64,000 bases of DNA, taken from contig NZ_JAIVAI010000004.1 in the NCBI RefSeq assembly GCF_020171525.1, forward strand, positions 149,058 through 213,057, given 5' to 3'. The translations under genes and the position numbers were made by a program. The notes below the pieces were generated by a model that was not told where the DNA came from, did not search any database, and saw only the letters and a program-made list of their open reading frames with translations. Source of the DNA: Halobacillus yeomjeoni (GTDB taxonomy: Bacteria > Bacillota > Bacilli > Bacillales > Halobacillaceae). Positions 25,560 through 45,314 of this stretch are shown one piece after another; within the stretch, counting starts at the first letter, position 1, and every line of letters begins with the position of its first letter.

Positions 25560-26915
25560 TTGGAGAACATAAATGAACTATGGAATAACACGCTGGAAAA
25601 AATTAAAGAGAAAATTAGTAAACCCAGCTTTGAAACGTGGTTAAAAGCAACAAAAGCAGATTCGTTGAGTGAAAATACACTAACAATCGTAGCTCCAAAT
25701 GAATTCGCCAGAGACTGGCTTGAAAATCAATACGAAGGGTTGATCACAGAAACCTTATATGAAGTGACAGGAGCTGAACTGACAGCTAAATTCATCATTC
25801 CAGAGACCAAGGACGATTCCTTGGATGATGTAAAACTTTCTTCGAAGAAGGTACCGGAAGTTAAAAATAATGGGAACGAAGAATCCCCGCAAAGTATGCT
25901 GAATTCTAAATATACATTTGATACTTTCGTTATCGGTTCTGGTAACCGTTTTGCTCATGCGGCTTCTTTAGCTGTAGCGGAAGCACCGGCTAAAGCTTAC
26001 AATCCTTTATTCATCTATGGTGGAGTCGGACTCGGTAAAACTCACTTGATGCATGCGATCGGCCATTACGTTCTGGATCACAATCCAAACGCGAAAGTGG
26101 TTTATTTATCTTCAGAGAAATTCACGAATGAATTCATCAATTCCATCCGTGACAATAAAGCTGTCAATTTTAGAAATAAATACCGTAGTGTCGACGTTCT
26201 TCTTATCGATGACATTCAATTCCTTGCCGGGAAAGAACAGACACAGGAAGAATTCTTCCATACATTCAACACATTACACGAAGAGAGTAAGCAAATCGTC
26301 ATTTCCAGTGACCGACCGCCGAAAGAAATTCCTACTCTGGAAGATCGATTGCGTTCACGTTTTGAATGGGGTTTGATTACGGACATCACGCCTCCTGATT
26401 TGGAAACAAGAATTGCAATCCTAAGGAAGAAAGCCAAAGCGGAAGGATTGGATATCCCGAACGAAGTTATGTTGTATATCGCAAACCAAATTGATACCAA
26501 CATCCGCGAGTTAGAAGGCGCGCTGATCCGAGTTGTCGCTTACTCCTCCTTGATCAACCGTGATATTAATGCATCTTTGGCTGCAGAAGCGTTGAAAGAT
26601 ATCATTCCAAGCTCAAAACCGAAAGTGATCACCATTGAAGCGATTCAGGAAATGGTTGGTGAAAAGTACAATGTGAGATTAGAAGATTTCCCAGCAAAAA
26701 AACGAACGAAATCTGTCGCATTCCCTAGACAAATCGCCATGTATTTATCTAGAGAACTCACAGATTTCTCTCTTCCGAAAATCGGAGAAGAATTTGGTGG
26801 ACGAGATCACACGACCGTTATTCATGCTCACGAAAAAATATCAAAAATGATTGCTACCGACCAGCAGCTGCAAAAAGAGCTGGACGAAATTAAAGAACAA
26901 CTGAAAACTCACTAA
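25560..26915 (+). CDS. dnaA: Chromosomal replication initiator DnaA
   Basis: A 451-residue DnaA beginning (M)[21 protein letters not shown]. It has an N-domain, a linker, the AAA+ domain (Walker [15 protein letters not shown], Walker [11 protein letters not shown]) and the C-terminal box-binding domain with [15 protein letters not shown]. The TTG at 25560 is chosen: it follows AAAGGGGTG and gives the canonical N-terminus; upstream in-frame codons run through the leader hairpin. DnaA boxes lie on both sides of the gene. It is followed by dnaN. Confidence 0.98.
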
Positions 26916-41647: not shown

Positions 41648-42922
41648 ATGTTGGATATGAAATACCTGCGTCAAAATTTTGATGAAATCAAAGAGAAATT
41701 ACAACATCGGGGAGAAGATCTCTCTGATCTGGATGCTTTTGGTGACTTAGACAGCCGCCGCCGGGAACTCATCCAAGAAACCGAAGAATTGAAAGCTCGT
41801 CGTAATGAGGTTTCTAAAGAGATTTCACAGCTTAAGAAACAAAAAGAAGATGCTGATGATAAAATCAAAGAAATGCGTGAAGTAGGCGATCGTGTAAAAG
41901 AATTAGATGGAGAGCTGAAGGATGTAGAGGAAAAGTTACAAACCCTTCTTCTATCCATCCCGAACATCCCACATGAAAGTGTCCCAGCTGGAGAAGATGA
42001 GGATGATAACGTTGAAGCTAGAAAATGGGGAGAGATCCCAACCTTCAACTTTGAAGCAAAAGCCCATTGGGACGTAGCTACAAACTTAGGATTACTGGAT
42101 TTTGAACGCGCCTCTAAAGTGACAGGCAGCCGATTTGCTTTTTATAAGGGAATGGGAGCTCGTCTGGAGAGAGCTTTATTGAATTTCATGATGGATTTAC
42201 ATGCAGATGAACATGGTTATCAGGAAATGCTTCCCCCTCAGATGGTGAACCGGGATTCTATGACTGGTACTGGTCAATTACCGAAGTTTGAAGAAGATGC
42301 ATTTAAGATTGAAGACTGGGATTACTTCTTAATTCCGACAGCAGAAGTACCTGTGACCAACTACCACAGGGATGAAATTTTATCTGTTGAAGATTTACCT
42401 CAAAAATTTGTAGCTTTCAGTACCAATTTCCGTTCTGAAGCAGGGTCTGCCGGGCGAGATACAAGAGGATTAATCCGTCAGCATCAATTCAACAAAGTCG
42501 AGTTGGTTCAACTTGCTAAGCCTGAAGATTCTTATGATGTATTAGAAGAGCTTACAGGCCATGCTGAGAAGGTCCTGCAGCTGCTTGAACTACCTTATCG
42601 AGTCATGAGCATGTGCACAGGAGATTTAGGCTTCACAGCGGCTAAAAAATACGATATTGAAGTATGGATTCCAAGCTATGATACGTACCGTGAAATCAGC
42701 TCTTGCTCCAATTTCGAGGACTTTCAGGCTCGCAGGGCAGGAATCCGTTTCCGCCGTGAAGAAAAAGGAAAGCCTGAATTTGTTCATACCTTGAACGGTT
42801 CCGGTCTTGCTATCGGTCGTACAGTCGCTGCAATCTTAGAAAATTATCAGCAGGAAGACGGCTCTGTCATTGTACCTGAAGTTCTTCGTCCATACATGGG
42901 TGGAAAAGAAGTAATTAAATAA
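41648..42922 (+). CDS. serS: Seryl-tRNA synthetase
   Basis: A 424-residue class II synthetase. The N-terminal long coiled coil binds the tRNA arm (about residues 25-105), followed by motif 2 ([26 protein letters not shown]) and motif 3 ([19 protein letters not shown]). The ATG at 41648 follows AAGGAGGAA, just beyond the T-box terminator. Expression depends on tRNA-Ser charging. A tRNA-Ser gene lies 400 bases downstream. Confidence 0.98.
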
Positions 42923-42930
42923 TGCTTGTA

Positions 42931-42958
42931 GGGCCACGTCTTTACGTGGCCTTTCTTA
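42931..42958 (+). terminator. Terminator after serS
   Basis: GGCCACGT pairs with ACGTGGCC around CTTT, followed by TTTCTTA. Confidence 0.85.
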
Positions 42959-42964
42959 CATACA

Positions 42965-43264
42965 TAAGGGGTTCTATTAATGCTTGGTGTTGTTATTTCA
43001 AAAATCGTAGCTTAGATCAGCTCTTTCCGTTCTGGAATCTGTTTTTGTGTCCTTTTAGAATGACTCGCTTTACGTGGGTACCGTGAGTTTCCTTAGGCTG
43101 ACGTTTTCCGGGGTCTCACGATGTACCTTCATCCCACAGTAGTCTCCCCATCCCCGCGGAAAGCGGACTGTTTTCTCTTCCCTCCCACATTATGATTAAA
43201 CGAGGGACCGATGGAGTAATAAGTAATCGTTATAAAGAGCAACAAACGACGTTATCAAAGTCTG
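42965..43264. mobile_element. Decayed, internally deleted relative of the 6641 MITE-like element
   Basis: The left end matches the first ~200 bases of the element at 6641 with many changes (shared CTTGGTGTTGTTATTTC, CCTTTTAGAATGACTC, CCGGGGTCTCACGATGTACC). At about 43150 it jumps to the right-hand part (CCCCGCGGAAAGCGGACTG, then AGTAATCGTT and AACAAACGAC). About 170 central bases are missing and the terminal repeats no longer pair well. It fills the gap between serS and tRNA-Ser. Confidence 0.75.
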
Positions 43265-43285
43265 AAAAAAATTTTTCAAGAAATG

Positions 43286-43314
43286 TTGACGATTTTTATA
43301 AACCGTGATAGTAT
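43286..43314 (+). promoter_or_regulatory. Promoter of tRNA-Ser
   Basis: TTGACG (43286-43291), 17 bases, TAGTAT (43309-43314), 18 bases before the tRNA. Confidence 0.75.
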
Positions 43315-43332
43315 ATTATTTGTCGGTCACAC

Positions 43333-43425
43333 GGAGGAGTACCCAAGTCCGGCTGAAGGGAGCGGTCTTGAAAACCGCCAGGGGGTTAACGCCCCGCGGG
43401 GGTTCGAATCCCTCCTCCTCCGCCA
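43333..43425 (+). tRNA. tRNA-Ser (anticodon UGA), CCA encoded
   Basis: A 93-base class II tRNA. The acceptor GGAGGAG pairs with CTCCTCC (43415-43421), with discriminator G and an encoded CCA. The anticodon loop in GGTCTTGAAAACC gives TGA; the long variable arm and the GGTTCGAATCC T-arm are clear. It reads UCA-type serine codons. Confidence 0.97.
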
Positions 43426-43473
43426 TTTAAATTATCAACAATAGCGCATAAATATTGGAGATTATAGAATGAA

Positions 43474-43508
43474 ATCGTTACTGTTAAGTAACGGTTTTTT
43501 TTATGCTC
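43474..43508 (+). terminator. Terminator after tRNA-Ser
   Basis: ATCGTTACT pairs with AGTAACGGT around GTTA, followed by a run of eight T. Confidence 0.85.
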
Positions 43509-43631
43509 TTTTTTAAGTGATGAAGCATGACTGCTTTTCAAGATACATATCGAGAATGATTATAGAAGTAGTAGAGGTATAAACGTAAAACACGGGCTAA
43601 GGGCTGCAATAAAGGTGAAATTCTGTTTGGA

Positions 43632-44165
43632 TATCGCTTATATCGCCTCCCGATACGGGGTGAAAATAATCTTATCCTCTACTAAATAAAGGTTTCAGAA
43701 AAGAAAGATATATTGTAAGATTTATTTAGAGGCTCACTCATATCGGTTATAGCGTCTGGCGATACAGTAACTATATCGATGAACGTAGTTTTATTTGATG
43801 TATCGCTACCCGATACATATTGCTAACTTGGTAGAAAAACGTCATCTTTTAGTAAAGGAGATCCGATATGCGACACGATATACGTCCAAACGAACGTGCT
43901 TATTCCACGAAAGAAGTGGCAGAAGAGGTAGGTATAGCCACGCCTACAGTAAGGAAATATGGTCAAATACTCGAACGCAATGGATATGAATTTTTTAAAG
44001 AGGGAGATCGGAGGATCTTTGTTCAATCCGATATCGACGCCCTCATAGCGATACGCGATACAGCACAACCTAAAGACGATACAGCTAAAGAGTTGGTTGA
44101 ACAGCAGCAAGAACGCTTATCCAGCACCGAAACGACGAGTGTAGCGGCTCCCGATACATACGATA
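43632..44165. repeat. Cluster of TATCG/CGATA half sites with four paired sites
   Basis: Paired sites TA(T/G)CG-N5-CGATA(C) occur at 43641-43655, 43750-43764, 43801-43815 and 44142-44156, always with a 5-base spacer. Further half sites are at 43548, 43632, 43741, 43774, 43864, 43876, 44029, 44032, 44049, 44056, 44077 and 44161. About a dozen and a half half-sites in some 600 bases is far above chance. They surround and enter the coiled-coil protein gene at 43868, and most likely bind its product. They explain the gene-free stretch 43510-43867. Confidence 0.8.
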
Positions 44166-44575
44166 CTGCTCTTCAAGACTCTGCCAAGCTTCATGAGTTC
44201 TTAAAGTTCTTATCCAGTGAACTGGCTGCCTCACGGGAAATGAATGCACAACTTTCTAATGATATCACTCAACTCAAAACTACGGTCTCGCGTCTTCAAC
44301 AGGATCACCATGTTATCAGCGCAGGGGTCGGGAACATGGCTCAAAAAACAAATACCAAAATAGATAAATTAACAGCCCGGCAAGAAGCTCAATACGAAGA
44401 ATTGCTGGAACAAGAAAAACTTAAAAGTGATATGCTTCAACAAGAATTGCAAGCGATGAGAGAAGAACAGAAGCGTGAATGGCAATCTCAAAATGAGTTC
44501 AATAAAAGGTTGGAAGGAAAAGTGAAAAACTCAAAAGGAACCTGGGATTGGCTGCGTTCTTTATTCAGTAAATAA
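43868..44575 (+). CDS. RacA/pSK1-Par-like DNA-binding coiled-coil protein
   Basis: A 235-residue protein. Residues ~11-64 form a MerR/RacA-like helix-turn-helix with wing (YSTKEVAEEVGIATPTVRKY, then a G-D-R-R-I-F wing and D-I-D-A-L helix). Residues ~105-150 and ~160-218 are predicted coiled coil. The tail N-S-K-G-T-W-D-W-L-R-S-L-F-S-K is basic and Trp-rich, like a membrane-seeking helix. This layout is that of RacA and of single-protein plasmid partition proteins (pSK1 Par, DUF3967-type). The ATG follows AAAGGAG. The clustered TATCG/CGATA sites around the gene suggest binding and autoregulation. I do not recognise an exact orthologue at this place in B. subtilis. Confidence 0.75.
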   Translation: MRHDIRPNERAYSTKEVAEEVGIATPTVRKYGQILERNGYEFFKEGDRRIFVQSDIDALIAIRDTAQPKDDTAKELVEQQQERLSSTETTSVAAPDTYDTALQDSAKLHEFLKFLSSELAASREMNAQLSNDITQLKTTVSRLQQDHHVISAGVGNMAQKTNTKIDKLTARQEAQYEELLEQEKLKSDMLQQELQAMREEQKREWQSQNEFNKRLEGKVKNSKGTWDWLRSLFSK

Positions 44576-44613
44576 AAAATCCTGCAGCTTACATGTAAGC
44601 TGCAGGATTTTTA
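44576..44613. terminator. Bidirectional terminator between convergent genes
   Basis: AAATCCTGCAGCTTACA pairs perfectly with TGTAAGCTGCAGGATTT, with A and T runs outside. Confidence 0.93.
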
Positions 44614-44630
44614 TTAAGACTTCTTCTCTA

Positions 44631-45314
44631 TTACGTCAGCAAGTGGCTTGAGCGCCATTTACGGGATTGTTGAATGAAATGACCGATTTTCTCTAAAATA
44701 GGTTCAATGCTGTCTTCATCATTCATCACATCGTAATCAGCAATATTTAATCGTAATACCGGACAGGCGTTAAAGTTATCGATCCAATTCTCATAACGTT
44801 TAAACATTTCCTCCCAATATTCGACTGGCGTTTCCTGTTCCATTGGCCGGCCTCGCTTTTTGATACGTTCTAAGACGTCGTCAAAAGAGCCTTCCAGATA
44901 AATTAATAAATCAGGATGAGGAAAATATGGGGTCATGACCATAGCATCAAATAGGTTGCGATACGTTTCATAATCTGTACCCGACATCGTTCCTTTTTCA
45001 TAATGCATACGGGCAAAAATCCCGGTATCTTCATAGATGGAACGGTCTTGAATGAACCCGCCTCCATATTCAAAAATTTTCTTTTGTTCTTTGAAGCGCT
45101 CGGCTAAGAAGTATATTTGAAGGTGGAAACTCCAACGTTCAAAGTCTTGATAGAATTTATCAAGGTAAGGGTTGGTGTCCACTTTTTCAAACGAGGTACG
45201 AAAATTTAATGCATCGGCAAGAGCATTCGTCATCGTTGACTTCCCTACACCGACGGTACCAGCTATCGTTATGACGCTGTCATGTGGTATTCCGTAGCGT
45301 TCACGTGCATTCAT
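44631..45314 (-). CDS. dck: Deoxyadenosine/deoxycytidine kinase
   Basis: A 227-residue deoxynucleoside kinase. The P-loop is GTVGVGKSTMTNAL, then ERWSFHLQIYFLAERFKEQ and the DRSIYEDTGIFA motif, close to B. subtilis Dck (YaaF). It salvages dA and dC. Its ATG overlaps the stop of dgk by 4 bases, so both are made from one message. Confidence 0.93.
   Translation of the reverse strand: MNARERYGIPHDSVITIAGTVGVGKSTMTNALADALNFRTSFEKVDTNPYLDKFYQDFERWSFHLQIYFLAERFKEQKKIFEYGGGFIQDRSIYEDTGIFARMHYEKGTMSGTDYETYRNLFDAMVMTPYFPHPDLLIYLEGSFDDVLERIKKRGRPMEQETPVEYWEEMFKRYENWIDNFNACPVLRLNIADYDVMNDEDSIEPILEKIGHFIQQSRKWRSSHLLT

Follow-up and report, generated by a model that had tools for sequence, protein, structure and literature searches.

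According to the sections available of the papers cited here and below, RacA consists of a MerR-type winged helix-turn-helix (HTH) followed by a coiled coil and ties DNA to the membrane side (PMC6593407, PMC4949633), and its ram sites in Bacillus subtilis lie mostly within 250 kb to the left of oriC (PMC4949633). RocS of Streptococcus pneumoniae, which provides single-protein chromosome partitioning, contains an HTH, a coiled coil and an amphipathic helix, and its membrane binding requires oligomers (PMC11500499). Noc brings DNA to the membrane through dispersed sites and an amphipathic helix, with sites covering most of the chromosome except the terminus (PMC4331003), and the helices of both RocS and Noc bind membrane only as oligomers or nucleoprotein complexes (PMC11500499, PMC4331003). 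Here, we analysed a 64,000-nucleotide stretch of the Halobacillus yeomjeoni genome (contig NZ_JAIVAI010000004.1, positions 149,058 to 213,057, forward strand; hereafter the window), in which a gene at 43868..44575 (+ strand) encodes a 235-residue protein and carries paired sites inside and beside itself. This gene probably encodes a one-protein origin organiser resembling RacA, RocS and Par of plasmid pSK1, which would serve as a centromere-to-membrane tether. Judged from the sequences, what is unusual is that the gene incorporates sites which outlast its dead copies, and that the locus maintains its distance from oriC. A literature search for the protein family or the paired motif found no paper describing either among the best 4-15 matches per query, which were judged by title or abstract opening.

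The reading frame of the 235-residue protein described in the initial annotation was borne out (43868-44575, + strand), and 88 orthologous loci besides the window gene, taken from the genome search and from added close relatives, brought the set to 89. The AlphaFold model of the protein, built with 43 sequences, has a mean predicted local distance difference test score (pLDDT) of 78.8 and a predicted template modelling score of 0.29. It comprises a winged HTH at residues 10-66 (43895..44065, + strand), a linker that is weak in the model (pLDDT below 50 at residues 86-98), a long helix or coiled coil at residues 105-234 (44180..44569, + strand) and an amphipathic C-terminal tail, so that the MerR/RacA-type HTH and long coiled coil suspected earlier are both present in the prediction. 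Structural alignment of the HTH by VIA-align gave RacA (8.5), ParA N-domains (8.2-8.5), NmlR (7.9) and pSK1 Par (7.7) as the best neighbours, which were counted as tied, while Foldseek with the whole model returned nothing under E 0.001 and sequence searches of Pfam, NCBIfam and PDB yielded no informative family. The last 12 residues, GTWDWLRSLFSK (44537..44572, + strand), have a hydrophobic moment of 0.54, and the mean over the 88 orthologues is 0.56. This tail had been called Trp-rich and basic; the second term holds on average among the orthologues, but amphipathic describes it better than Trp-rich, and the hydrophobic moment makes it a candidate membrane anchor.

The predicted MerR-type winged HTH, the coiled coil and dispersed sites concentrated near oriC are shared with RacA as the available sections describe it, the site concentration here referring to motif positions, not to binding. 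Unlike RacA, whose model has 184 positions against ~235 residues here, this family has sites inside and beside its own gene, and the RacA profiles NF009646-NF009649 were absent among the 10 NCBIfam matches of the protein up to E 1. The RacA profile does detect other genes in the same genomes, with matches at E 1e-13 or better in 12 of the 27 gene-bearing genomes and in 5 of 11 genomes lacking a strong match to the protein, which led us to reject replacement of RacA by this protein; the curated RacA cut-off was passed in 1 of the 38 genomes. RocS has in common the N-terminal winged HTH, coiled coil and C-terminal amphipathic helix, all predicted here, but carries DUF536, which is absent among 17 Pfam matches of our protein up to E 1, and the sections available of PMC11500499 mention no specific binding sites, in contrast to the paired motif described below. 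With pSK1 Par the protein shares a predicted winged HTH of the Par fold and a site array beside its own gene, whereas pSK1 Par belongs to a plasmid and the present family is chromosomal, with a longer range of sites and with sites inside the gene. The solved pSK1 Par chain showed no sequence match to the protein up to E 10 (phmmer and profile). Pfam DUF3967 was likewise absent among the 17 Pfam matches, and in the rows compared, DUF3967/MerR proteins of Bacillaceae plasmids were 30-48% identical over the matched part, mainly the HTH. Profile searches place the protein outside RacA, RocS (DUF536) and DUF3967. On one Parageobacillus plasmid, the start of a gene for a DUF3967 protein ~44% identical in the HTH (L159:2454-2535) is closely flanked on both sides by TATCG/CGATA half sites, differently arranged, and the gene is possibly a plasmid-borne cousin of the system; no TAKCG-N5-CGATA pair occurs in the two plasmid loci read (L159 and L160).

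Between 43548 and 44575 the window contains 18 half sites (7 TATCG and 11 CGATA), where about 17 had been claimed, against a mean of 2.8 and a maximum of 10 in 2000 dinucleotide shuffles. Five TAKCG-N5-CGATAC pairs occur in the same interval and none in any of the shuffles. Four of them had been recognised from the start, namely TATCGCCTCCCGATAC (43641..43656, -227), TAGCGTCTGGCGATAC (43750..43765, -118) and TATCGCTACCCGATAC (43801..43816, -67), found upstream by pattern search, and TAGCGGCTCCCGATAC (44142..44157, +274) within the gene; the fifth, TAGCGATACGCGATAC (44046..44061, +178), also within the gene, had been overlooked (all on the + strand). The +274 site and the core of the +178 site recur at the same gene positions in many orthologues. 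The remainder of the window (62,973 bases) contains no further pair. Across the whole genome the pattern has nine strand matches, six of them (five places) at the gene, and the reversed control pattern has two; the motif is not equally frequent genome-wide. A longer pattern, YRTAKCGNNNNNCGATAYR, is found at five places at the gene and at four elsewhere in this genome, one of which lies 27 kb from dnaA.

Nearby site clusters, predicted for the orthologues, were indeed found at most of them. Using the eight-base core TANCG-N5-CGNTA, 235 cores were counted within 700 bp of the 89 genes compared with 19 in the other 524 kb of flank; within this distance, 69 of the 89 loci have at least one site, 63 at least two and 48 at least three, and 20 have none. 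On the gene strand, sites fall at about -50 to -75, +178 and +274 as well as at other upstream places, and downstream sites extend from just past the stop codon to ~250 bp, or further out in loci with gene remains. An apparent dependence of site orientation on strand was discarded as an artefact of displaying loci in contig orientation. In the 53 genes chosen for the +178 site, the encoded residues vary (Ile or Val at 60, Ala or Ser at 61) with the motif letters unchanged, a variation that alone would be circular as support because the genes were chosen for the motif. A less biased measure is the codon for Arg63, which is CGC in 70 of the 86 genes with Arg at this position, whereas CGC makes up 9% of all other Arg codons of site-bearing genes.

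Remains of extra gene copies were sought by BLASTN of each gene against its own masked flanks, and were present in 9 of the 89 loci (22 alignments, some of only 32-85 bases). They carry stop codons in five of the nine genomes, and most end near residue 150, with the rest of the coil missing. In direct-orientation alignments of at least 100 bases, 147 of 152 site-core bases were identical to the gene, compared with 3170 of 3916 other bases, and 13 of 19 sites were whole where 18% was expected for each (p 2.5e-6, not corrected for shared descent). The better preservation of core bases together with the stop codons shows that the sites outlived the reading frame. For the window array itself, an origin from gene remains was rejected, since BLASTN found no remains in the flanks of this gene.

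The position of the gene was analysed in 22 genomes with a chromosome-sized contig and a located dnaA. In the window, dnaA, taken as the oriC marker, lies at 25581..26903 on the + strand (G000:C4:174638-175960), which places the gene ~17 kb away. The nearness to oriC that had been proposed applies to the window but not to most complete genomes examined, where the distance is 250-510 kb. Specifically, in 14 of the 15 complete genomes whose gene has at least two extended sites, the gene lies 256-508 kb from dnaA, the exception being G006 at 728 kb. Of the seven with fewer extended sites, six have distances of 888-1464 kb and one, G052, a distance of 391 kb (Mann-Whitney p 5e-5, without correction for the tree). 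By the same rule, one genome (G309) was counted as site-poor although two in-gene cores are kept. Relative to the dnaA strand, ten of the 15 site-rich genes lie to the right and five to the left, and the neighbouring genes differ among most genera.

Copies of the extended motif more than 5 kb from the gene in the same 22 genomes are also concentrated towards the origin: the origin-proximal quarter contains 44 of 59 (p 2e-15 relative to a uniform distribution), and 32 of 46 after clean-up (p 3e-10). In the clean-up, copies in a PHP gene were removed and copies common to related genomes were counted once, two shared pairs (x1 and x2) being equated by motif letters alone, with the genes not read. 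The PHP-gene site (G000, G006, G307, G309 and G316) was rejected as a case of deep conservation and dropped from the count because its peptide, HIGYRY, largely dictates the letters and because genomes without the array retain it too. Overall, strand matches in the 22 genomes number 180 for the extended pattern and 16 for its reversed form; in 11 genomes without a strong protein match the corresponding totals are 13 and 5. Six of those 13 correspond to three places in one genome (G004), ~400 kb from dnaA; two of the three were read and both precede a PadR-like gene, identified from sequence reading. At L158:9661-9692 in this genome, two adjoining copies of a like palindrome stand before the PadR-like regulator gene and are likely an unrelated operator with similar letters. 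Extended-motif sites were also seen 8-9 kb from dnaA in two genomes, at about 2063 of L152 (G224) and about 2001 of L151 (G290), the former situated between an rsmG-like and a noc-like gene, as named from sequence reading. When 26 dispersed copies were read in 22 loci, 21 or 22 lay within reading frames, which fits an architectural role better than gene control.

The initial annotation had viewed the protein as a chromosomal RacA/Par-like factor with centromere-like sites near oriC. Motif frequency and the orthologue sites favour that view, which has to be amended in that the sites also lie within the gene and are dispersed around oriC. In the origin organiser that we consider probable, the predicted winged HTH would bind the TAKCG-N5-CGATA sites, the predicted coiled coil would join the bound dimers to one another, and the amphipathic tail would fasten the protein-DNA complex to the membrane; by analogy with RocS and Noc, the site array might supply the oligomer or nucleoprotein state that such helices need. 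The protein would thereby draw the scattered origin-proximal sites together in a single complex, whose densest seed would be the gene-borne array, and the complex would act in segregation as a centromere-to-membrane tether, helping to hand chromosomes to daughter cells. It may also tune its own promoter through the site near -70. Two observations weigh against an architectural role of the dispersed sites: some of the copies are coded by conserved peptides, and the extended site is absent altogether from 4 of the 22 genomes. More tentatively, and with somewhat less than even confidence, we propose that the centromere is self-encoding. The coding sequence would be part of it, dead tandem copies would be kept purely as further binding units, and the locus would be held at ~250-500 kb from the origin on one arm or the other, with changing neighbours, by the need to work together with the sites dispersed around oriC in bringing the origin region to the membrane.

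The strongest competing explanation, which we nevertheless regard as unlikely, is an ordinary transcription factor that controls its own gene, where it has several operators, along with a small regulon. It would account for the MerR-type HTH and for the one site that directly precedes a recurring promoter-like block, and clustered operators are common. In the window this block is a putative promoter, TTGCTA-N17-CATCTT (43820..43848, + strand), placed by eye from aligned upstream regions directly 3' of the -67 site and not flagged by a consensus scan; in 26 upstream regions compared by eye, a block of the form TTGCAA ... CATATT is repeated across orthologues, abutting the -70 site. However, it does not readily explain sites fixed at 178 and 274 bases into the gene, their persistence in dead copies, the location of most dispersed copies within reading frames or the position of the gene relative to dnaA. 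The evidence favours a one-protein origin organiser over plain autoregulation because sites are kept in the gene remains, the distance to dnaA is held and the dispersed copies are origin-proximal.

Dispersed palindromic sites and an amphipathic helix are also the plan of Noc (PMC4331003), and membrane-bound site complexes near the origin could restrain division or regulate initiation without moving or anchoring the origin. We consider such a timer improbable: Noc is a ParB-type protein with an N-terminal helix, the present protein is not ParB-type by Pfam or fold, and the sites of Noc, as far as the available sections of PMC4331003 describe them, extend chromosome-wide except for the terminus, whereas the copies here cluster around oriC and form a dense array at the gene.

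Protein searches found 768 relatives at E 0.001, of which the best 120 were listed, and among 299 sampled genomes of the order, the match was strong (E 2e-50 or better) in 67, no more than weak in a further 47 and absent at E 0.001 in the remaining 185. The family is compact (~235 residues), and most strong matches are ~58-72% identical across genera. In a FastTree gene tree (support values not inspected), many labelled genera group together, while the window's genus is scattered over several places and the window copy stands alone. In one genome (G036:C1:1147274-1147988, L071) the frame is broken mid-gene, no site occurs within 1.5 kb and the locus is 1147 kb from dnaA; this copy has lost its position, its sites and its frame alike. 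The least likely explanation, a partition gene of plasmid or phage origin that became trapped in chromosomes and hitchhikes there without a host function, could point to this broken copy, to the varying neighbours, to a match with the phage family phrog_3470 of PHROG (function not known; 2e-12) and to 67 records of partial DUF3967/MerR relatives in the plasmid collection, but none of these records covers 80% of the 235-residue query, tblastn at 1e-3 found no homologue in the phage collection, and the identity across genera, the largely genus-wise tree and the placement relative to dnaA all argue against it.

If the gene does encode an origin organiser, a good share of Bacillaceae, given its presence in 67 of the 299 genomes of the order, would possess, in addition to ParB and RacA, an unstudied system that organises the origin and has a defined DNA site. 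It would also show how a centromere can grow by tandem copying of a site-carrying gene followed by decay of all but the sites. Moreover, a locus that keeps its distance from oriC, not its neighbours, would offer a natural example with which the reasons for centromere placement become testable.

A tRNA-Ser at 43333-43425, the sole Rfam match over 42900-44700, precedes the gene, and a later arrival of the gene behind it had been suggested. Consistent with this, five genus mates, the only ones showing both tRNA-Ser and dck in the stretch read, have the gene elsewhere and a tRNA-Ser to dck spacing of 0.36-1.4 kb, and the window copy stands apart in the gene tree; integration at the tRNA itself, however, was rejected, as no repeat of at least 12 bases of its 3' end marks the following 2.6 kb. 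A terminator-like hairpin found by consensus scan, given for the - strand, lies 3' of the gene at 44575..44612. Between serS and tRNA-Ser, at about 42970-43156, a ~185-base repeat without an Rfam match recurs at 74-83% identity at no fewer than 20 other places in the genome and is in part also present in genus mates.
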